Of a stretch of 22,194 bases of DNA, positions 3,057-13,863 are shown piece by piece (positions within the stretch are counted from its first letter, which is position 1; each line of letters begins with the position of its first letter). Position numbers and translations under genes: made by a program. The stretch spans positions 1 through 22,194 of the IMG/VR virus record IMGVR_UViG_3300025853_000749; one strand, written 5' to 3'. A model generated the notes under the pieces. That model was not told the DNA's origin and did no database searches. It saw nothing but the letters and a program-made list of their open reading frames with translations. This DNA comes from a virus.

Positions 3057-3087
3057 GGTAATTATTATTCTAAGAGAGAATTATTAC

Positions 3088-3438
3088 ATGAGTGAAAGTA
3101 AAAGTAAAGTCTATGTAATACAAAAAGTATTGCGTAAACACATTGATGGAACCTTGAGAGGACTTGATTTTTCCCAAGCAGAAAGATTTGGAGAGATAAT
3201 TTATTTGTTTGATAGCCAAAAACAAGTAGTGATGTCTCCACAACCCACAATTAGAAAAATAAAACAGATCTTAAAAAACTTTAAAGACACTGATTATTTA
3301 GTACTTGTGGGAGATCCCGCATTAATAGGGTTGACATGTGCCGTTGCAAGCACTATATCTAATGGTAGATATAATATGTTAAAATATGATAGATTAGAAA
3401 GAGATTACTTTCCTATCAGAGTTGACATAAACGAATAA
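3088..3438 (+). CDS. Conserved phage protein of unknown function (116 aa) opening the replication module
   Basis: The protein begins MSESKSKVYVIQ and has an alternating alpha/beta pattern: a strand (VYVIQKV), a helix with LDFSQAERFGEIIYLF, a helix with PTIRKIKQILKNF, a strand-turn DYLVLVGDPALIGLTCAVAS, and a C-terminal strand. The LVGDPALIG segment looks like proteins I recall next to replication genes in marine phages, but I cannot assign a function and see no nucleotide-binding loop. I chose ATG at 3088 rather than the upstream ATG at 3037 because AAGAGAGA (3072-3079) is well placed for it. The longer version would also start inside the divergent helicase gene and add a hydrophobic leader not expected in a cytoplasmic replication-module protein. 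It is the first gene of the rightward module. Confidence 0.75.
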   Translation: MSESKSKVYVIQKVLRKHIDGTLRGLDFSQAERFGEIIYLFDSQKQVVMSPQPTIRKIKQILKNFKDTDYLVLVGDPALIGLTCAVASTISNGRYNMLKYDRLERDYFPIRVDINE

Positions 3439-3453
3439 GAAAGGAAAACAGTA

Positions 3454-3993
3454 ATGTTAGATTTACGAAAAGAGAAAAGCGATTTTGAAGTCAGTGAGGT
3501 TGATCCGATATCAAAAGCATGTCAGGAACAATTAAAAATAGAAAAAGAAATTGACGATTTAGAGTCATTAATGAAGGTAAAAAAAGACCTGCTCAGACAA
3601 AATGGAGAACAAATTGTTTCTTTAATGGAAGAGCGTGGTGTTAAATCAATTAAGATGTCAGATGGACAATCTGTAGACATCAAACCATTTTATACTGGAA
3701 GCATATCCAAAGATAATCAAGAGGCAGCGTTTGATTGGCTTCGTGAACACGGGTATGATGATATTATAAAAAATCAAGTTGTCTTAAAATTTGGTAGAGC
3801 AGAAGATGAAAAGGCTGATCAAATTTATAGTGACTTGGCGAGTAAAGGTTTAGACGCTGATAGAAATATCAAAGTTGAACCTATGACCCTCAAAGGTTTC
3901 ATTCGTGAAATGATTGAGAACGGTAAAGACATCCCAATGGAAACATTTGGTGTTTATGTCGGACATAAAATTAATATCAAGAAAGGTAAGTAA
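3454..3993 (+). CDS. Coiled-coil phage protein of unknown function upstream of the SSB-like gene (179 aa)
   Basis: The N-terminal third is a charged helix with heptad character (about residues 21-60, QLKIEKEIDDLESLMKVKKD onward). It is followed by a globular part: a basic strand (GVKSIKMSDGQSVDIKPFY), a W-containing helix (AAFDWLREHGYDDII), and a conserved-looking C-terminus with EPMTLKGFIREM and FGVYVGHKINI. I recall similar proteins immediately upstream of single-strand-binding or recombination genes in many phages, but no biochemical role is known to me. There are no catalytic motifs. A good Shine-Dalgarno (AAGGAAA) precedes the ATG. The four-base gap to the next gene suggests it is made together with the putative ssDNA-binding protein; an accessory or loading role is speculation. 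Confidence 0.75.
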   Translation: MLDLRKEKSDFEVSEVDPISKACQEQLKIEKEIDDLESLMKVKKDLLRQNGEQIVSLMEERGVKSIKMSDGQSVDIKPFYTGSISKDNQEAAFDWLREHGYDDIIKNQVVLKFGRAEDEKADQIYSDLASKGLDADRNIKVEPMTLKGFIREMIENGKDIPMETFGVYVGHKINIKKGK

Positions 3994-3996
3994 AAT

Positions 3997-4863
3997 ATGT
4001 CAGAGAAAAGTAAAACACAACAAGTAGTAAAAGAAGAAAAGAAAAGCGTAGCTGTATTTGATAATTCAATTTTGAGAAAAGCTGGTGCATCTTTGAATGA
4101 GAGAGATGCAGAAGATTATCAGATACCTTATTTGAAAGTTATTGTATCTGCTTCTCCACAAAGAAAAAAAGATAACAATAATTATATTCAAGGTGCCGAA
4201 GAGGGTATGATTTTTAATAGTGTTACATCAAAGCTTTACGATAATTTGACTGTTCTACCTGTATATTATCGAAGAAGATATACAGAGTGGCATACAGACA
4301 GAGATAAAGCGACGAGTCCTTTAAATATTTATACCATTGAAGAATACGAGAAAATGAAGAGAGATGGCAGAGTGTTTAGAAATGAGAATAACATAGAGAT
4401 TTTAGATGGTGGTGAGACTTACGTTCAAAACACCGCTGAACACTATGTGATTGTCGTTGAGGAAGACGGAAGTTGGAATCAAGCTATTATCAAAATGAAA
4501 TCTACTCAGCTAAAAAAATCTAGAACATGGAATTCTATAATGGCTAATCAAAGAAGAATTGATGGTGATGAAATTTATCAACCTAAAGATTTTGCTAGAT
4601 CATATAAACTTTCTACAAAATCAGTACCTGGTAAAAAAGGTGACTACTATGATTGGGTAATCAATCAGGGTGACTGGATTGATGAAATGGATAATCCAAA
4701 TATTGAAAAAATATTTAATGATGCCGTTAAATTTGAAAAGGCCATTCATAAAGGTGAGGTATCTGGTGTAGAAGAAGATACTTCCGATGAACAAGTTTCT
4801 CCGCAAAAGGGTGGCGGAGATGCCTCGAAGAGTGGTGACTCGGAGTCCGATTTACCATTCTAG
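3997..4863 (+). CDS. Putative phage single-stranded-DNA-binding protein with acidic DLPF tail
   Basis: The 288-aa protein has a mixed alpha/beta core (about residues 20-245). This is followed by a low-complexity Ser/Gly/Asp/Glu-rich tail ending in ESDLPF. That ending resembles the DDDIPF tip with which bacterial SSBs recruit replication partners, and the acidic tails of phage SSBs such as T7 gp2.5. The core is rich in aromatic and basic residues (for example LPVYYRRRYTEWHTDRDK, about 87-104), as expected for ssDNA contact, but I cannot identify an OB fold by eye. Its position directly before the primase and after a coiled-coil accessory gene supports the role. The function is inferred from tail, composition and context. 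An alternative is another type of replication or recombination mediator. The gene is followed by an inverted repeat rather than by close coupling to the primase. Confidence 0.6.
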   Translation: MSEKSKTQQVVKEEKKSVAVFDNSILRKAGASLNERDAEDYQIPYLKVIVSASPQRKKDNNNYIQGAEEGMIFNSVTSKLYDNLTVLPVYYRRRYTEWHTDRDKATSPLNIYTIEEYEKMKRDGRVFRNENNIEILDGGETYVQNTAEHYVIVVEEDGSWNQAIIKMKSTQLKKSRTWNSIMANQRRIDGDEIYQPKDFARSYKLSTKSVPGKKGDYYDWVINQGDWIDEMDNPNIEKIFNDAVKFEKAIHKGEVSGVEEDTSDEQVSPQKGGGDASKSGDSESDLPF

Positions 4864-4876
4864 CTTACTAGCGCAG

Positions 4877-4940
4877 GATACGGCAGTCTCTGCTATTTTA
4901 TTTCTCCACATTTATGATGTTAATAGGGGATTGCCGTATC
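4877..4940 (+). repeat. Inverted repeat / long RNA hairpin between SSB-like and primase genes
   Basis: A perfect 9-base inverted repeat, GATACGGCA (4877-4885) and TGCCGTATC (4932-4940), extends inward to a 15-pair stem (4877-4891 with 4926-4940) if three G-U pairs are allowed. The loop is 34 bases and AT-rich. No T-run follows the stem, so it does not look like an intrinsic terminator. It lies in the 98-base gap between the SSB-like gene and the primase, ending 21 bases before the primase ATG and close to its Shine-Dalgarno site. It could regulate primase translation, act as an mRNA processing site, or form a structured single-strand replication site. The repeat is certain; the function is not known. 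Confidence 0.65.
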
Positions 4941-4961
4941 ATTTATTAAGGGAACCAATAA

Positions 4962-6518
4962 ATGAATGATGCATTTGTAGAAAAATTTAAGAATATATTT
5001 ACGGGTTTAGAGCGAGCCCATGGTGTGTTTGAGAAATCAAACGAACCACAAAACGGTAAAAAAGTGGAAGCTCGAATGAAGACTGTCCACGAACCGCCGA
5101 CCACTGAGAAATTTCAAAAACACTTGAAGGGGGAGTATCCTGCCATGGGTATTGTTCCTATTAATGATGATAATCAGTGCCTGTTTGGTGCTATTGATAT
5201 TGATGTTTATCCATTAGATCACAAAGCACTACAGAAAAAGATTAAAGATAAAAAGTTTCCATTAGTTATGTGTCTATCAAAAAGTGGTGGCGCTCATTTA
5301 TATTTATTTATGAAAGAGGCAGTTGCCGCTAAAGAAATACAATTAAAATTAAGTGAAATGGCAACCGCAATTGGATATCCCTCAGCGGAAGTTTTTCCTA
5401 AACAAATTGAGTTATCTCAGAGAGAGGGAGAACAGAAGAGAGATACAGGGAGTTGGATTAACTTACCCTATCATGGAAGAAATAGATACGCACTCAAGGA
5501 GGATGGATCGGGTGCCACACTAGAACAGTTTCTTGCGCTATACGACTCAATGGTCGTTGGTGATCTGTCAAGCATCAAGACAGATTTCAAGAACGAAGTT
5601 ATCAAGGACGGACCTCCTTGTTTACAGATACTAACGGAGCAAGGAGTGAGCGATGGTTCCCGCAATAACGCTCTCTTCAATATCGGAGTATTTTATAGGA
5701 AGTCTAGTCCTGATAACTTTGCAGAATTAACGGAAGAATATAATAGAGTATATATCCACCCACCGCTGAAAGCGGATGAGGTAATATCTGTTATACGACA
5801 AATAAGTCAGAGTGATAATGAGGGTGCACCAAAGTATATGTATCGATGTACTCAGCCACCAATTGAGTCTCTTTGTAATAAACGTTTATGTAAGAAGAGA
5901 AAATTTGGTGTAGGTGGTGACAACGATAGAGAGCATCCTGTGTACTCTGATTTAAAAGTTTATAAGTCGGATCCACCGAGATACTTTCTTAATGTTGATG
6001 ACAGAAGAGTAGAAATACCTAATACCGAAGACTTAATGAACCATCGTAAAATTATTCAAGCATGTCTTGAGCAATTAAATACAGGGATAATGAACATGAG
6101 TGCCGCAGAGTGGAATAGAACATACTCAGAGTTATTCGAGAATATATCGATTGATTATCCTCCCGAAGAGGTAACCAAGAAAGGTGAATTCAAAGAACTA
6201 CTAGAAGAGTTTTGTTTACATCAGGGAGAAGCATTAAGCTTTGATGATATCTTTTTAGGCAAATCCTATAATGAGGAAGGGTATACCTATTTTGCTTTAA
6301 AAGATTTAATGGATCATTTAAAGAGAAATGATTTTAAAGAGTCTCGAGCATGGGTGACTGTTAGATTGAGAGAAGAGTATGAGGCGGAAGACCTGATCAA
6401 GACAGTAAAAAATGTTAGAATTAGACTTTGGAAAATACAAGAATTAACCGTAGGACAACCAGAATTAGATATTCCTAATATGGAAAAAGAAGTAAAAGAG
6501 GAGGAGATTCCGTTTTGA
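4962..6518 (+). CDS. Archaeo-eukaryotic-type (TOTE/AEP) primase with PriCT-like domain
   Basis: This 518-aa protein is predicted to synthesise primers for DNA replication. Seen: the AEP metal site AIDID (D79 and D81), the SGGAH element (H112), then EVFPKQ (143-148) and GSWINLPYHGRNRY (163-176). These mark the TOTE-type AEP primase family. A PriCT-1-like helical domain follows (about 228-285, GSRNNALFNIGVFYRK to PPLKADEVISVIRQ). Next is a cysteine cluster (C296, C305, C310) that may bind metal. There is no Walker A or helicase domain, so unwinding must come from another protein. The last six residues, EEEIPF, resemble the SSB C-terminal tip; the Glu codons also encode the strong Shine-Dalgarno of the next gene, which partly explains them. 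AAGGGA precedes ATG 4962. The gene overlaps the DNA methyltransferase start by four bases. Confidence 0.85.
   Translation: MNDAFVEKFKNIFTGLERAHGVFEKSNEPQNGKKVEARMKTVHEPPTTEKFQKHLKGEYPAMGIVPINDDNQCLFGAIDIDVYPLDHKALQKKIKDKKFPLVMCLSKSGGAHLYLFMKEAVAAKEIQLKLSEMATAIGYPSAEVFPKQIELSQREGEQKRDTGSWINLPYHGRNRYALKEDGSGATLEQFLALYDSMVVGDLSSIKTDFKNEVIKDGPPCLQILTEQGVSDGSRNNALFNIGVFYRKSSPDNFAELTEEYNRVYIHPPLKADEVISVIRQISQSDNEGAPKYMYRCTQPPIESLCNKRLCKKRKFGVGGDNDREHPVYSDLKVYKSDPPRYFLNVDDRRVEIPNTEDLMNHRKIIQACLEQLNTGIMNMSAAEWNRTYSELFENISIDYPPEEVTKKGEFKELLEEFCLHQGEALSFDDIFLGKSYNEEGYTYFALKDLMDHLKRNDFKESRAWVTVRLREEYEAEDLIKTVKNVRIRLWKIQELTVGQPELDIPNMEKEVKEEEIPF
6499..6504 (+). promoter_or_regulatory. Strong Shine-Dalgarno AGGAGG supporting a TTG start
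   Basis: AGGAGG lies 10 bases before TTG at 6515, inside the last codons of the primase gene. It decides in favour of the rare TTG start, since no ATG or GTG is better placed before the first methyltransferase motif. Confidence 0.75.
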
Positions 6519-7495
6519 TAAAGGTATTATTTGGAAATAGTTTTGAGAAGGTAAAAGACTTAGAAGATAACTCTATTGATTGTGTTGTCTCCTCTCCTCC
6601 TTACTTTGGTTTAAGAGATTACGGTAATGAAAATCAAATGGGTTTAGAAAATCATTATAAAGATTATATTCAAAACACGGTTAATCTTTTTAGATTAATG
6701 AAACCTAAGTTAAAAGACACTGCCACAATATGGTGGAATGTGGGGGATAGCTATTACAATTATCGGCCAACAAGAAACAAAGATAATTTATATAAAAGTC
6801 CCGACTACCATAAACAAACTATCAGTAATTCAAGACAAGACCTGCCTACAAAAGGTAGTAAAAGGGGTATTGTGTTTGAGGATATAAAAGAAAAAGACTT
6901 AATGATGATACCTAATAGGGTGGCAATCGCTTTACAGGAAGACGGATGGTATGTTCGATCAGAAATAATTTGGTCAAAACCTAATCCCATGCCTGAGAGT
7001 GTTAGAGATAGGCCTACTTCTGCACATGAAAAAATATGGTTGATAACCAAATCAAAGAATTATTATTACGATTCAAATTCTATTAAAGAACCTTTATCTT
7101 CAAACTCAGTTAAAAGATTAACACAACCTAATTTAATAAACCAACTAGGATCTAAAAGAGGAAATGGTGGAATGAAGTCTAATGGGAATATGAAAGCCGT
7201 AGGAGAACTAACAAAAAGAAATAAAAGAAATGTTTGGACAGTTACTACTAAACCATTTAAGGGAGCACACTTTGCTACCTTTCCTATTGATTTAATTGAG
7301 CCTTGTGTACTTGCAGGATGCCCTGAAGGTGGAACAATCTTAGACCCTTTTGGTGGATCAGGAACAACAGGAGTTGCCGCAAATAGACACAAAAGAAATG
7401 CAATCTTAATTGAGTTAAATGAAAACTATAAAGAAGTAATGCAGTTAAGGTTTAGTAAAGAAGATCCATTATTTTTGGAGACACAGTATGAGTAA
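6515..7495 (+). CDS. Beta-class site-specific DNA methyltransferase (N4-cytosine or N6-adenine)
   Basis: The 326-aa protein transfers a methyl group from SAM to a base in DNA. Motif order is that of the beta class (PF01555): catalytic SSPPYFGLRDYG near the N-terminus (residues 26-37), a central target-recognition region (about 100-235), and the SAM-binding DPFGGSGTTG (277-286) near the C-terminus. SPPY is most common in N4-cytosine methylases but also occurs in N6-adenine enzymes, so the base is undecided. The length is normal and no motif is missing. It starts at TTG with a strong Shine-Dalgarno, overlaps the primase stop (TTGA) and overlaps the next gene by eight bases. No cognate restriction endonuclease is seen beside it, so protection of phage DNA from host restriction, or marking of phage DNA, is the likely job. 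The target site is unknown. Confidence 0.9.
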   Translation: MIKVLFGNSFEKVKDLEDNSIDCVVSSPPYFGLRDYGNENQMGLENHYKDYIQNTVNLFRLMKPKLKDTATIWWNVGDSYYNYRPTRNKDNLYKSPDYHKQTISNSRQDLPTKGSKRGIVFEDIKEKDLMMIPNRVAIALQEDGWYVRSEIIWSKPNPMPESVRDRPTSAHEKIWLITKSKNYYYDSNSIKEPLSSNSVKRLTQPNLINQLGSKRGNGGMKSNGNMKAVGELTKRNKRNVWTVTTKPFKGAHFATFPIDLIEPCVLAGCPEGGTILDPFGGSGTTGVAANRHKRNAILIELNENYKEVMQLRFSKEDPLFLETQYE

Positions 7496-9077
7496 ACCCA
7501 TTGTTGTCATCGGACCGCCAGGCACGGGCAAAACAACTTTTATTCTTAACAAGATAGAAGAGTATATTGCTGAGGGATACTCGATTGATGAGATCGGTTT
7601 TTTCTCTTTCTCAAACAAGGCGGTAGACGAAGCTAAACAGAGAGCCAGTGAGAAATTCAAAATACCTGCCTCTCAATTAGAAAGCTTTTCCACACTTCAC
7701 TCTTATGCCTTGCGTCAGCTAGGTTTAAGTCGTGACTATATAATGAGTAAAAATGATTGGAGAAATGTAGAGGATGTACTTCGGATTAAAATTAATGTTA
7801 ATAATGATGACGATAGTTTTTACAATAACTACGACGACAAATACATTCAGTTAATTGAAAAAGCAAAGCGAAGAGATATTGATTTACGAGATTGTTGGAC
7901 AATGTTTGCAAAAGATATTATCTATCACAAACTTGAGTATATTTCTAAAGGACTAAAAGAATATAAAGAAAAAGGTTATGAAAAGTTTACTGATGGTATC
8001 ACAGGTTCTTTTGTTAAAGACTCTGGTCCTAAAATGGATTTTACTGATTTGATCAGTAACTATGTAAAGCAAGATAGAGTTAAACCTTTTCGTGTTGTAT
8101 TTTTTGATGAGTCACAGGACATGTCCACGATCCAATGGAAAATGGCAGAGATGATTTGGAAAGCATCAGAGGTGTCTTATATTGCGATGGATCCTAATCA
8201 GGCTATCTATACTTGGGCTGACGCTGATGTGGCAAGAGCCATTGAGGTAAAAACTCAGTCCTCTAAAACAATTGTTTTAGATCAATCAAAGAGAGTACCA
8301 AGAAAAATTTGGGAAGTTGTTAATCGTGTTGAAGAGCAGATAGTTGCCTATGATGATATTAAATGGAAACCCGCTGAGAGAGATGGGAATGTAGAATTTG
8401 TTAAAGGTATCTATCATCTTAATGTTTCTGAGGGTAGTTGGTTGGTAATGGGTAGAACAAGGACAATTAGAGAGGATTTAGAAGAAGTACTACGTAAAAA
8501 GAATGTATTTTTTCGTGTTAAAATGCGGGATAATAAGTATCGTTATTCTGTGAAAGCACAGGAAAGAAATGCTATACTAACTTGGAAAGAATTAATGAGA
8601 AGCGAAACAAATGAAGTTCCGATTAGAATGATTGATAATTTATATAAAAGCATTGGAAAAGGTTTTGTAGCGAGGGGATATAAAAAAGTAGTGTCAGAAC
8701 AAAAGAAAGCTTTTCCCGATAAAAAAGTTTGTTTTAAAGAACTAAAAGAAAGCTACGGACTGGAAGCTGAATTTGGAATTTCTTGGGTAGATGTAATGAC
8801 TACCTTGAATACAGAAACAAGAGCATACTTGGAAAACCTAGAGTCAAGGGGTGAGGACATAGGTAAAGAACCAAGGATAACGCTATCCACGATCCACCAA
8901 CAAAAAGGTGGTGAAGCAGATAATGTTATTGTCTCTCTTGATATAGGAAAGATGGCGTATGAAGATTACCGCACCAATCCTATTAATGAGCATCGTTTAT
9001 TTTACGTTGCCTTTTCAAGAGCGAGACACAATTTATTTGTTGTCTTACCTCAATCAAGGGAGGCTTATAGAATATGA
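7488..9077 (+). CDS. UvrD/Rep-like superfamily 1 DNA helicase
   Basis: This 529-aa protein is a compact SF1A helicase. Motifs in order: Walker A GPPGTGKT (9-16), motif Ia FFSFSNKAVDEAK (38-50), motif II FFDESQD (205-211), motif III AMDPNQAIYTWADAD (233-247), motif IV region LVMGRTR (319-325), motif V LSTIHQQKGGEADNV (466-480), and motif VI RLFYVAFSRARHNL (503-516). Cellular UvrD/Rep enzymes are about 670-720 residues, so the accessory 1B/2B subdomains must be small here. Its place between the DNA methyltransferase and DNA polymerase genes, and the lack of a helicase domain in the primase, suggest it or the SNF2-type protein drives unwinding at the fork. The start overlaps the previous gene by eight bases, with GGAG seven bases upstream of ATG. 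It overlaps the next start as ATGA. Confidence 0.92.
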   Translation: MSKPIVVIGPPGTGKTTFILNKIEEYIAEGYSIDEIGFFSFSNKAVDEAKQRASEKFKIPASQLESFSTLHSYALRQLGLSRDYIMSKNDWRNVEDVLRIKINVNNDDDSFYNNYDDKYIQLIEKAKRRDIDLRDCWTMFAKDIIYHKLEYISKGLKEYKEKGYEKFTDGITGSFVKDSGPKMDFTDLISNYVKQDRVKPFRVVFFDESQDMSTIQWKMAEMIWKASEVSYIAMDPNQAIYTWADADVARAIEVKTQSSKTIVLDQSKRVPRKIWEVVNRVEEQIVAYDDIKWKPAERDGNVEFVKGIYHLNVSEGSWLVMGRTRTIREDLEEVLRKKNVFFRVKMRDNKYRYSVKAQERNAILTWKELMRSETNEVPIRMIDNLYKSIGKGFVARGYKKVVSEQKKAFPDKKVCFKELKESYGLEAEFGISWVDVMTTLNTETRAYLENLESRGEDIGKEPRITLSTIHQQKGGEADNVIVSLDIGKMAYEDYRTNPINEHRLFYVAFSRARHNLFVVLPQSREAYRI

Positions 9078-9334
9078 ACTTAAAAGAATTAAAAGATCAC
9101 GGTCTTTTAGATGATGAAATGATTAAATGGGATGGTTTTGATGACTGTGTTTTAGGTGTTGGAAGAAGATGTGGGATGGAAGACATTCTTATTTATAGTA
9201 GACAAAAAATTGCTTACAAATTAAGAGACAGGGATAAAATGACAGTAGAAGAGGCTATCGAATATATAGACTATAACATAGTGGGAGCGTTTGTCGGAGA
9301 GAGAACTCCTATGCTTTTGGAGGATTTTATATGA
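9074..9334 (+). CDS. Small conserved phage protein of unknown function next to DNA polymerase (86 aa)
   Basis: The protein has a pattern I recall from many phage replication modules: an aspartate-rich opening (WDGFDDCVLGVGRRCG, about residues 19-34), a strand with YSRQKI, then MTVEEAIEYIDYNIVGAFVGERTP (56-79). It is small, acidic and soluble, with no catalytic motif I can name. ATGA overlaps at both ends couple it to the helicase and the polymerase, and GGGAGG precedes the start. A role as an accessory factor in DNA synthesis is only suggested by position. Confidence 0.8.
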   Translation: MNLKELKDHGLLDDEMIKWDGFDDCVLGVGRRCGMEDILIYSRQKIAYKLRDRDKMTVEEAIEYIDYNIVGAFVGERTPMLLEDFI

Positions 9335-11211
9335 GTAAGCAAATAGGAATGTTTAAACCTAAATCCGAGTGGCTACCACCAATGGACTTTCCCGATATTA
9401 AAGATGCAAAAAGAATTGCCATCGATCTAGAGACAAAAGACCCTAACATCACAGAAAAGGGTGCTGGCTGGGCTACAAACGATGGACACATTATTGGAGT
9501 AGCTATCGCTGTTGATGGTTGGGAGGGTTACTATCCTGTTCGACATGAGACAGGTTTTAATCATTCTCCTGAAATAGTTTTTGATTGGTTAAATGAAATG
9601 CTATCCACTGACTGCGAGAAGATTGCCCATAATGCCTCTTATGATTTTGGTTGGTTACAGGCAGAGGGAGTTAAGTGGAATGGTCGTATTATTGATACGA
9701 TGATTGCGGGACCTCTCATTGATGAAAATAGATTTAGTTATTCTTTAAATGCAATGTCTAAAGAGTATTTAGGAGAAAGTAAAAATGAGTTTTTGTTAAA
9801 AGAAACAGCGGCACAGTGGGGTGTCGATGCTAAAGCAGAGATGTATAAGATACCTGCTCAGTTCGTGGGAGAATACGCAGAGCAAGACGCGGTTCTCTGT
9901 CTTAAGCTTTGGGATAGACTGAGTGTGGAAGTCACCAAAAATAATTTAGAAACTGTTTTTAATTTAGAAACGGATCTCCTTCCTGTTCTTATGGAAATGA
10001 GAAAGAAGGGAGTGAGAGTTAATTTAGATAAATTAGGGGTAGCAGAAAAAGAGTTAATTAAAAGAGAAAATAAATTACTTAATTTTGTTCACGATAAAAC
10101 AGGTGGTAAGGTAGATATTTGGGCGGCTAGATCTATCGCCTCTATCTTTGATCTTTGTAAAATTGATTATCCTAAAACGGATAAAGGTAATCCTAGTTTT
10201 ACAAAAAGCTTTTTAGAAAATCATCCTCATCCTGTGCCAAAGGCAATCGTTCAAGCGAGAGAATACAACAAAGCGCGAACCACGTTTCTCCATACGATAG
10301 AAAGATATAACCACAACGGTAGAATTCATGCCAATATCAATCAACTACGAACCGAGAATGGCGGAGCGGTGACGGGGAGATTTAGTTATTCTAATCCTAA
10401 CCTACAGCAGATACCTGCTCGAGATAGTAAAGAGGCAGATATTAAAATAGGAACAATGATCAGAAGTCTATTTTTACCTGAAGAGGGAGAGAAGTGGGGT
10501 TCATTTGACTATTCACAGCAGGAACCGCGTTTAGTGGTTCATTATGCTGATTTTATAGGTTTAGCTGGTTCAGAAAAGCTCGTAGGAGCTTACAGGGACG
10601 ATAAAAACACTGACTTCCATACGATCATGGCGGAGATTGGAAAAATCGAACGTAAGAGCGCTAAAACCATAAATTTAGGGTTATTCTATGGAATGGGTGT
10701 TGGAAAACTAGCAGATCAGCTAGGAATTAACCCTGAGGAGGCAAAACTACTTATCACCGAATATAATGAGAGAGTTCCCTTTGTTAGGAAGTTAGCTGAC
10801 CGAGTTTCAGATCACGCAGGTAAAACAGGAAAGGTAAAAACATTTTTAGGAAGACAATGTCACTTTGATTTGTGGGAACCAAAAGCGTTTGGTGCTCATC
10901 GAGCATATCCTTATGAGAAAGCAAAAGAGGAGCACGGTATTAATACACCCTTAAAAAGAGCGGGTACATATAAAGCATTGAATAGATTAATTCAGGGTAG
11001 CGCTGCCGATCAAACCAAACAGGCAATGGTGACTCTTTATAAAGAGGGTGTTATTCCAATGATACAAATTCATGATGAACTAGCTATTAGCGTTGATGGT
11101 TCGAAAGAACAGCAAGAAAAAATAATAGAGGTAATGGAAAATGCTATTGAATTAAATATTCCATCAAAGGTGGATGTAGCTGTAGGAGATAATTGGGGAG
11201 AGGCGCAGTGA
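9331..11211 (+). CDS. Family A DNA polymerase with 3'-5' exonuclease domain
   Basis: The 626-aa replicative polymerase has two domains. The N-terminal proofreading exonuclease shows Exo I IDLET (D32, E34), Exo II NASYDF (D105) and Exo III YAEQDA (Y182, D186). The polymerase domain shows the thumb/TGR element TGRFSYSNPNLQQIP (348-362), motif A FDYSQQEPR (D393), motif B RKSAKTINLGLFYG (441-454) and motif C HDELA (581-585). All catalytic residues are present. There is no 5'-3' exonuclease domain, as is usual in phage PolA. The residue matching E. coli F762 is L449, a variant linked in published surveys of viral polymerases to different fidelity or lifestyle. The start overlaps the upstream stop (ATGA), with GGAGG before it. 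DUF3310 follows with a GTGA overlap. I see no DnaJ-like zinc motif (CxxCxGxG), a feature reported for the polymerase of phage HMO-2011. Confidence 0.96.
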   Translation: MSKQIGMFKPKSEWLPPMDFPDIKDAKRIAIDLETKDPNITEKGAGWATNDGHIIGVAIAVDGWEGYYPVRHETGFNHSPEIVFDWLNEMLSTDCEKIAHNASYDFGWLQAEGVKWNGRIIDTMIAGPLIDENRFSYSLNAMSKEYLGESKNEFLLKETAAQWGVDAKAEMYKIPAQFVGEYAEQDAVLCLKLWDRLSVEVTKNNLETVFNLETDLLPVLMEMRKKGVRVNLDKLGVAEKELIKRENKLLNFVHDKTGGKVDIWAARSIASIFDLCKIDYPKTDKGNPSFTKSFLENHPHPVPKAIVQAREYNKARTTFLHTIERYNHNGRIHANINQLRTENGGAVTGRFSYSNPNLQQIPARDSKEADIKIGTMIRSLFLPEEGEKWGSFDYSQQEPRLVVHYADFIGLAGSEKLVGAYRDDKNTDFHTIMAEIGKIERKSAKTINLGLFYGMGVGKLADQLGINPEEAKLLITEYNERVPFVRKLADRVSDHAGKTGKVKTFLGRQCHFDLWEPKAFGAHRAYPYEKAKEEHGINTPLKRAGTYKALNRLIQGSAADQTKQAMVTLYKEGVIPMIQIHDELAISVDGSKEQQEKIIEVMENAIELNIPSKVDVAVGDNWGEAQ

Positions 11212-12303: not shown

Positions 12304-13863
12304 TTATTTAAGTTTATAACCTAAACCAGCGTATTTGTCTACACTTCCACCCTTTTTAAAATTCATTGATGCTCCGAAGTTTAGTCCCCCCTGACCCACT
12401 CTAGCATTTAAGTCAACAGGTTGTCCAAATATATCTACTGTATTAGAGTAACCTAATTCGGGTTTCCCTGAAAAAACATTATCAAATCTTAAATTACCTA
12501 TAGGTGTTTTTATTTGAGGGTTTTTTGAAAAATTATATAAATCCATTAAAGAAGGTAATCCTGTATTTTCGGCCATAAGAACGGGTTGTCCAATTGGATT
12601 TGTTTCAGGAGGTTGATTATAAAAATCTTCTTTTTGTTTATTTTTCATTTGCTCTTCTTTAAGCATTTTCTCAAATAGGTACTTGTCTAGTATTCTTCTT
12701 TCTTGAGGAGATAGTTCAGTTCTTAAATCTGATCCAATAGTTCCCTCAGGAACAATACCAATACTCTCTAAATATATATTACCCAAGGTATTATTAGGGT
12801 CATAGTATTCAGGAAGATTTACATTTTCCCGAGGCATATTAATTAAATTAGGATTTTCTATTGTGCTTCTTTGATAAGGAAGAGATACACCAGCATTGTC
12901 TATACCAAATATTGATGGATCACTCTCATCACCAATATTCCTGCCTGATGAAGTTGGTAAGTTACCTCTTGATAATAAGAGATCCCCTAACTCTCCTTCT
13001 TCTAAATCCTGATAACCAGATGGATTTGTTGTTCGAGCTAAAAACGGAGTGTCATCTATCTGCGAAGCACTAAAAGCGCCTAAATAATTATAATATTGGT
13101 CTAAAGGATTTACATAAAATTCTTTTTCTCCACCTCCTGCTAAGTTAGAAGGAATTACACCTTCTGGTGCGTTAGCCTGAGGAATTATACTATTCATCAC
13201 TTGCGTCCCAATTTTTTGATTATTAAGTGGAGCAGATACATAAGCTCCTCCTACTGCGTCTGCTCCACTTGAAAAAGGATCAGGTCTTGGAACGGTTTCT
13301 ATTCCTTGACTTTCACCACTAAAGTTACTTCTAACACTATCCCAAATATCTTTAACAGCACCTGTAAAACCAAGCTTACCTGACATGGCCGCCTCTGCAA
13401 CCCCACCCAACATATCTCCAGCACCTCTTACCATATCTTGAAAAAATTCTCCAAATGTTGGAGCTTGTGCTGTCAGTTCAGGCTGCATCATTGATAAAAT
13501 AGTTCGACCCTGTGCATCTTTCATAGGAACATCGGCACCAGACATTTGTAAACGCATAATACCATCAGGACCCTCAAGTATTTTACCACCAGCAGATTGT
13601 CCTCCTTGATACTGTTTCGCTTTATTTAAAAATCTTTGAAAATCTGCACCTCTTGGGTATTTTTGTTGTATGTTGTAAGCTTGATCAATAAGTTTATCTT
13701 TACCACCTGCTTGGTTAAACATGATGTTTTGATCAGCTTTACTATAGTTTTTAAAAGAGTCTCCACCAGGTGTGTAACTACCACTATTACCTACATCACT
13801 AAAGCCAACTCTTTTTGGTTTTCGGTTTGCTCTATTAGCTTGAATTGTTTGCATTATTGACAT
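12304..13863 (-). CDS. Probable virion structural or internal protein (519 aa)
   Basis: No named family is recognised. The protein opens with a basic stretch (ANRANRKPKRVGF, residues 9-21) and contains a Gly/Ala/Met-rich helical region (about 137-170, FGEFFQDMVRGAGDMLGG onward). A long Asn/Pro-rich, low-complexity middle follows, then a C-terminal beta-rich segment (ARVGQGGLNFGASMNFKKGG) ending GLGYKLK. Low-complexity, Gly- and Asn-rich proteins of this size at the end of the virion operon are usually internal or ejected proteins in podovirus-like phages, and that is my inference. The FKKGGS element near the end is one of several GG motifs shared by neighbouring virion proteins. The start overlaps the upstream stop as TAATG, with AGGTGG upstream. 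Confidence 0.7.
   Translation of the reverse strand: MSIMQTIQANRANRKPKRVGFSDVGNSGSYTPGGDSFKNYSKADQNIMFNQAGGKDKLIDQAYNIQQKYPRGADFQRFLNKAKQYQGGQSAGGKILEGPDGIMRLQMSGADVPMKDAQGRTILSMMQPELTAQAPTFGEFFQDMVRGAGDMLGGVAEAAMSGKLGFTGAVKDIWDSVRSNFSGESQGIETVPRPDPFSSGADAVGGAYVSAPLNNQKIGTQVMNSIIPQANAPEGVIPSNLAGGGEKEFYVNPLDQYYNYLGAFSASQIDDTPFLARTTNPSGYQDLEEGELGDLLLSRGNLPTSSGRNIGDESDPSIFGIDNAGVSLPYQRSTIENPNLINMPRENVNLPEYYDPNNTLGNIYLESIGIVPEGTIGSDLRTELSPQERRILDKYLFEKMLKEEQMKNKQKEDFYNQPPETNPIGQPVLMAENTGLPSLMDLYNFSKNPQIKTPIGNLRFDNVFSGKPELGYSNTVDIFGQPVDLNARVGQGGLNFGASMNFKKGGSVDKYAGLGYKLK

Follow-up and report, generated by a model that had tools for sequence, protein, structure and literature searches.

The window, that is, the whole stretch of 22,194 nt analysed here (IMG/VR virus record IMGVR_UViG_3300025853_000749, positions 1 to 22,194), carries on its + strand the genes of a Pam3_gp32-like protein, a Pam3 gp33-like protein, a Pam3_Gp34-like protein, an AEP primase, an N6/N4 DNA methyltransferase, a UvrD helicase, and a family A DNA polymerase. 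The methyltransferase gene (6515–7495) is situated between primase and helicase, where DSL-LC04 and HTVC027P have no such annotation. The gp34-type gene (Pam3_Gp34, PF23977, Pfam E 1.5e-48; phrog_2402) occupies 3997–4863 and encodes a protein with the tail ...ESDLPF, and the AEP-type primase gene (phrog_21866; AEP-TOTE and PriCT_1 domains, from domain and family matches) occupies 4962–6518, its product ending (6500–6518) in EEEIPF, an SSB-like acidic tip. The stop at 4863 and the primase start at 4962 delimit a hairpin-bearing intergenic gap of 98 nt (4864–4961, + strand), defined by ORF coordinates, folding, and junction comparison. As had been read from the sequence alone, such a gap is exceptional in this operon: the + strand junctions from 3438 to 11211 otherwise overlap or measure at most 15 nt, and the second large gap of the window comes after 11417.

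The perfect 9-base inverted repeat that the sequence-only reading had placed at 4877–4940 was recovered with exact coordinates, its complementary halves being GATACGGCA (4877–4885) and TGCCGTATC (4932–4940). Folding confirmed the stem and its extension by G-U pairs, albeit to 14 contiguous pairs (two of them G-U) and not to the 15 that had been counted. The 5′ arm GATACGGCAGTCTC (4877–4890, + strand) is joined to a 3′ arm (4927–4940, + strand) ending in ATTGCCGTATC, with a 36-nt terminal region between them (4891–4926, + strand) that contains the pyrimidine-rich TTTCTCC. Beyond the 14-pair stem the fold gives a 2-nt bulge and then five weak pairs, the weak inner pairing of the terminal region being that of 4893–4897 with 4922–4926. 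The minimum free energy of 4860–4960 is −27.2 (z −2.84), a value equalled by two of 200 dinucleotide shuffles; the gap alone yields a hairpin of −24.0 kcal/mol (shuffle p 0.015), and its fold is equalled by two of 150 same-length windows of the contig. The likely primase SD, AAGGGA (4948–4953, + strand), lies outside the stem in a region that is about 0.7 unpaired.

Within the window clade the gap exists in three versions, namely that of the window and L002, that of L001, L003, and L004, and that of L005 (97% primase identity), and the differences between them in the stem, the 5′ arm included, keep the pairs through G-U exchanges; L005 has, in addition, a second hairpin in front of the stem. 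Relatives at 76–78% primase identity have a gap of 52–55 nt with a CTAGCCGA..TCGGCTAG hairpin, and more distant primase relatives have yet other hairpins there. The window hairpin occurs once in the window and, in the contigs of its clade, at a single place each, not in the many copies of a REP-type element, and a mobile or repeated element was rejected when the hairpin pattern matched 11 contigs, five of them at this site in the window clade and six at places that look like chance or coding matches. A hidden small ORF (4787–4969) is open in L001 and interrupted by same-register stops in L005, L006, and L008, and is hence not coding. An internal promoter was likewise set aside, as promoter-like sites are at shuffle level (29 against 30.9). 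An Rfam scan at gathering score returned 0 matches in the window and 0 in 11 relatives.

The gene upstream of the hairpin belongs to a family to which PHROGs assigns no named function. Most gp34 relatives end in acidic C-terminal tails (DDIPF, DLPF, or EVPF, that is, xxIPF/LPF/VPF), and an acidic tip of the IPF/LPF type is a feature of bacterial SSBs. The AlphaFold model built from a 30-locus alignment (A4) has a mean pLDDT of 77 and gave no Foldseek match at E ≤0.001. In VIA-align, the best row is phiC31 gp3 (Z 7.9), a recombination directionality factor that ranks ahead of T4 gp32, followed by a BRCA2 chain (Z 6.2). The T4 gp32 core (1gpc) aligns with Z 6.1 over 160 residues at an rmsd of 4.8, where a Z below 8 is not proof, and the RB69 gp32 core with Z 5.9, the gp32 rows spanning 160–162 residues; RPA and SSB chains rank below the gp32 cores. 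Because the gp32-core rows come together with the acidic tail, gp34 is probably a gp32-like ssDNA-binding protein. It is not the sole SSB in Vibrio phage H2 (L142, 3259–3735) and Burkholderia phage Bm1 (L144, 3258–3650), where an annotated SSB follows directly after the gp34-type gene, and these phages may thus encode two. In L129, a gp34 homologue can be read on the + strand at 3059–3895, a place annotated in the record as a hypothetical gene of the minus strand.

The gap behind gp34 was then compared across phages. Primase relatives comprised 45 loci retrieved with the window protein and 80 kept of 132 retrieved with a 17-member alignment, to which named phages were added. The tblastn search with gp34 reached 504 phage records against 24 for the primase, and from the 504 a non-random set of 17 named phages (L134–L150), with a gene other than this primase behind gp34, was chosen for taxonomic spread. 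Taking as a hairpin any stem-loop of −8 kcal/mol or better between the gp34 stop and the next start, one was present in the post-gp34 gaps of 42 of 47 representatives, the window among them, at a median of 7 nt from the stop; the representatives, from clusters at 90% primase identity, are not independent of one another, and L130, in which gp34 does not adjoin the primase, was omitted from this count and from the T-tract and shuffle counts. The exceptions are three representatives of one clade (L093–L095) with a gap of 25–27 nt and no hairpin, and L117 and L129 with weak ones. In the 17 named phages without this primase as next gene, the hairpin reaches about −12 kcal/mol or better in every case.

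Other junctions are much poorer in such structures: 40 of 44 post-gp34 junctions have a hairpin (L129, L130, L141, and L150 omitted) as opposed to 35 of 191 other same-strand junctions, a difference that narrows to 40/41 against 35/53 when only gaps of at least 30 nt are compared. In the 17 named phages, the gap behind gp34 ranks among the most stable 10% of windows of its own locus in ten, a figure to be read with the knowledge that GC-rich genomes fold strongly everywhere, and none of 16 gaps before gp34 does so. For L141, this own-locus figure used the annotated next gene (434 nt) and the 47-gap count a nearer, hand-chosen ATG with an SD; for distant loci, a script picked the primase starts. 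The post-gp34 gap is more stable than dinucleotide shuffles at p ≤0.05 in 36 of the 47, and the 11 non-significant gaps include those of the GC-rich L144 and L147 (Pam3), the latter with its hairpin 153 nt from the gp34 stop. The shuffle statistic for the window hairpin is modest when taken on its own and convincing through this comparative evidence; the window stem-loop is a genuine RNA structure. Between clades the hairpins differ in sequence, length, and U-tract. Since they are present behind gp34 whatever gene comes next, the hairpin seems, from these comparisons, to go with the upstream gp34 gene and not with the primase. In the literature searched, no report of a conserved hairpin behind the gp34 gene was recognised; the predicted-terminator table of the PB1-like phage JG024 holds no hairpin like that of NP3 (PMC3008698, in that table), and a term search of PMC535899 brought up nothing on a 3′ hairpin. 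The Pam3_Gp34 3′-boundary hairpin is a grouping proposed in this analysis.

A more elaborate structure was found in a sister clade. In 24 loci at 78–82% primase identity (L006–L020, L024, L025, L027–L031, L034, and L038), the pre-primase gap is longer (116–141 nt) and holds an invariant outer stem TAATAGC/GCTATTA, a variable hairpin P2, and a covarying hairpin P3 whose apical loop is CCTCC, mostly within CCTCCTTTC (in the RNA, CCUCC and mostly then UUUC); the 11 loci scanned gave no Rfam match. Alignment A2 comprises 20 of the 24 long-leader loci, 19 of them distinct (L007, L018, and L031 were dropped as duplicates and L012 as truncated). Eight of the 12 pairs of P3 show two-sided changes and 97% of its cells are paired, as against two to four two-sided pairs over the whole structure in slid controls; P1 is invariant in six of seven pairs and thus uninformative on covariation. 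The 222 cells of P3 divide into 183 Watson-Crick, 33 G-U, one A-C, and five other combinations, and, while A2 was scored with a structure derived from A2 itself, so that the count leans towards pairing, the ratio of G-U to A-C is nonetheless extreme. Because G-U stands so far above A-C, the pattern fits pairing kept as RNA of the coding (+) strand and not as a DNA hairpin. The pair-preserving changes that had been suggested as a check on homologous gaps were found, mainly in this clade.

The sister-clade element is single-copy: the covariance model R1 finds one strong copy per record in nine of 18 records, and a pattern for the apical loop matched 20 stretches, 19 of which were taken as this site (18 by contig identity with primase-search loci and L174 by sequence) and one of which, in L165, lies elsewhere. 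In the window, R1 does not hit the site at 4.9 kb, its best score of 14.3 bits (E 0.22) lying at another place, and neither the TAATAGC/GCTATTA stem nor the CCTCC loop is present in its sequence; R1 likewise did not find the element in L021-type relatives. Position and the L005 version suggest a common origin of the window hairpin and the sister-clade element. The latter, compact and without an Rfam match, could be a phage RNA regulator of a new kind.

The leading reading, held with about even confidence, is that the hairpin is a 3′-boundary structure of the gp34 (SSB-like) message in the replication operon which raises SSB over the products of the downstream genes. One message serves both SSB, required in stoichiometric amounts, and the replication enzymes, required in catalytic ones; a hairpin slot behind the SSB gene, whether a U-tract accompanies it or not, would be a simple ratio setter, testable in culturable phages. 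In the hairpin-bearing post-gp34 gaps, the stem close behind the gp34 stop would act as a barrier, so that SSB would be produced in excess over the catalytic enzymes of the genes behind it. Where a lineage has a U-tract, the hairpin would be a leaky intrinsic terminator. The window lineage has a long loop and lacks the U-tract; there the hairpin would chiefly block 3′-to-5′ exonucleases or serve as a processing point, and the SSB message would thereby outlive the primase part. Message protection or processing is preferred over termination in the window because its copy has no T-run. The comparison of gaps thus favours a control of SSB dosage at the level of the message, through leaky termination or through 3′-end protection or processing. 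Against it count the many other gaps of at least 30 nt that also have hairpins (the 35 of 53 above), the post-gp34 gaps with a weak hairpin, with none, or with no significant advantage over shuffles, and the second annotated SSB in Vibrio phage H2 and Burkholderia phage Bm1. The RNA processing site setting the SSB:primase ratio that the sequence-only reading had offered comes closest to the evidence; its idea of a ratio survives, now with the hairpin assigned to the 3′ end of the SSB gene.

Known systems offer partial parallels. The REP element in malE-malF is an intra-operon 3′ stabilising hairpin between a high-dose and a low-dose gene and requires no U-tract, in all of which it is like the window hairpin, but it is a repeated element whereas the latter occupies one place per contig. 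In T4, the gap behind gene 32 (L184, 2004–2148, minus strand, 145 nt) carries GGGGACCCTAGAGGTCCCCTTTTTT in its first part, at a distance of 22 nt from the stop, as a hairpin GGGGACC..GGTCCCC plus TTTTTT; over its full length the gap does not differ significantly from shuffles, 17 of 200 of which fold as well. The T4 structure is likewise a stem-loop right behind an SSB gene, and the gp34 model resembles the gp32 core; it differs in its short loop and T-run from the window copy with its 36-nt terminal region and no T-run. Control of T4 gene 32 runs through a 5′ pseudoknot, to which gp32 binds, and through cleavage by RNase E (PMC3014915). The pseudoknot is again an RNA structure tied to an SSB gene and controlling the amount of SSB, but this operator sits 5′ of gene 32 and represses it, whereas the window structure is 3′ of the SSB gene. 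In T7, gene 2.8 follows directly after gene 2.5 with no downstream gap, and a universal SSB rule is therefore ruled out; the rule would be limited to the gp34 family, and perhaps T4 gene 32.

An attenuator, at which RNA polymerase would partly stop at the hairpin and so lower the primase and later genes, is an unlikely account of the whole. T4 gene 32 with its hairpin and T-run lends it support, as does a T-tract behind the hairpin in 17 of the 47 post-gp34 gaps (a count run separately to correct for rows of the 47-gap count in which the hairpin end takes in part of the T-run), with T-runs, for example, in ZP6, NP3, Karil-Mokiny-1, and ECO71P1 and textbook terminator forms in L085, L110, L139, L145, and L146. 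The remaining 30 gaps have no T-tract, so that one termination mechanism cannot explain all. In the window, as had already been pointed out in dismissing a simple terminator, no T-run follows the stem, its tail being CATTTATTAAGGG. No intrinsic-terminator core (score ≥14, loop 3–8) was found in the window gap, where the 14-pair stem carries its 36-nt terminal region and the sole terminator-like site is a weak inner 5-bp hairpin at 4882–4894; such sites number six against 4.9 in shuffles, which is chance level.

A leader controlling translation of the primase, in which CCUCC loops would pair with the primase SD or the gp34 protein would bind the structure, is also unlikely. It draws on the 24 sister-clade loci with their closing stem, P2, covarying P3, and apical CCTCC; CCUCC is the anti-SD core (PMC6288834), and pairing of the loop with downstream purine boxes is possible in all 19 distinct rows, with up to eight contiguous pairs in L008. 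This complementarity is, however, no test, because any anti-SD loop pairs with any SD, and an anti-SD role of the loop is put forward as a hypothesis only. The translational control of the primase proposed in the sequence-only reading is weakened by the hairpins that follow gp34 without this primase (17/17 named phages), by the absence of the element from the window and from L021-type relatives, and by the window SD, which is outside the stem. The SD is unpaired to a median fraction of 0.46 over the 42 hairpin-bearing gaps; its sequestration is not a common theme and may occur in single lineages. The seg43(25) leader of Aeromonas phage 25 (PMC2988022) also has a stable hairpin that lies shortly before an RBS without sequestering it, and is in this respect like the window, but there the gene is that of a homing endonuclease and the pertinent part of PMC2988022 does not connect it with an SSB gene. 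In the sister clade, translational control of the primase may still operate. A joint scheme, in which many phage genera would keep a free-sequence hairpin behind a gp32-fold SSB gene for dose and the sister-clade slot would have grown into an RNA of a closing stem and two hairpins, its apical loop copying the CCUCC-type 16S rRNA tail and holding back the primase start, is improbable in its entirety; if true, the sister-clade RNA would represent a cis-acting anti-SD RNA of a new class.

That post-gp34 gaps merely collect palindromes as neutral or relic hairpins without function would agree with sequences unconserved between clades and with the one clade that does without, and is rendered very unlikely by the excess over other junctions and over shuffles and by the compensatory changes. 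A single-stranded DNA structure for priming or replication start, the third option of the sequence-only reading, was suggested by the location between SSB and primase genes and is close to negligible, given the 33 to 1 of G-U over A-C, the occurrence of the hairpin away from primase genes, and a GC skew which, over the window, has no turn at 4.9 kb, its turns coinciding with the switches of gene direction near 3.0 and 11.7 kb.

Elsewhere in the window, a 17-nt inverted repeat (88%) with a 22-nt spacer lies at 13220–13275, inside a minus-strand coding gene.
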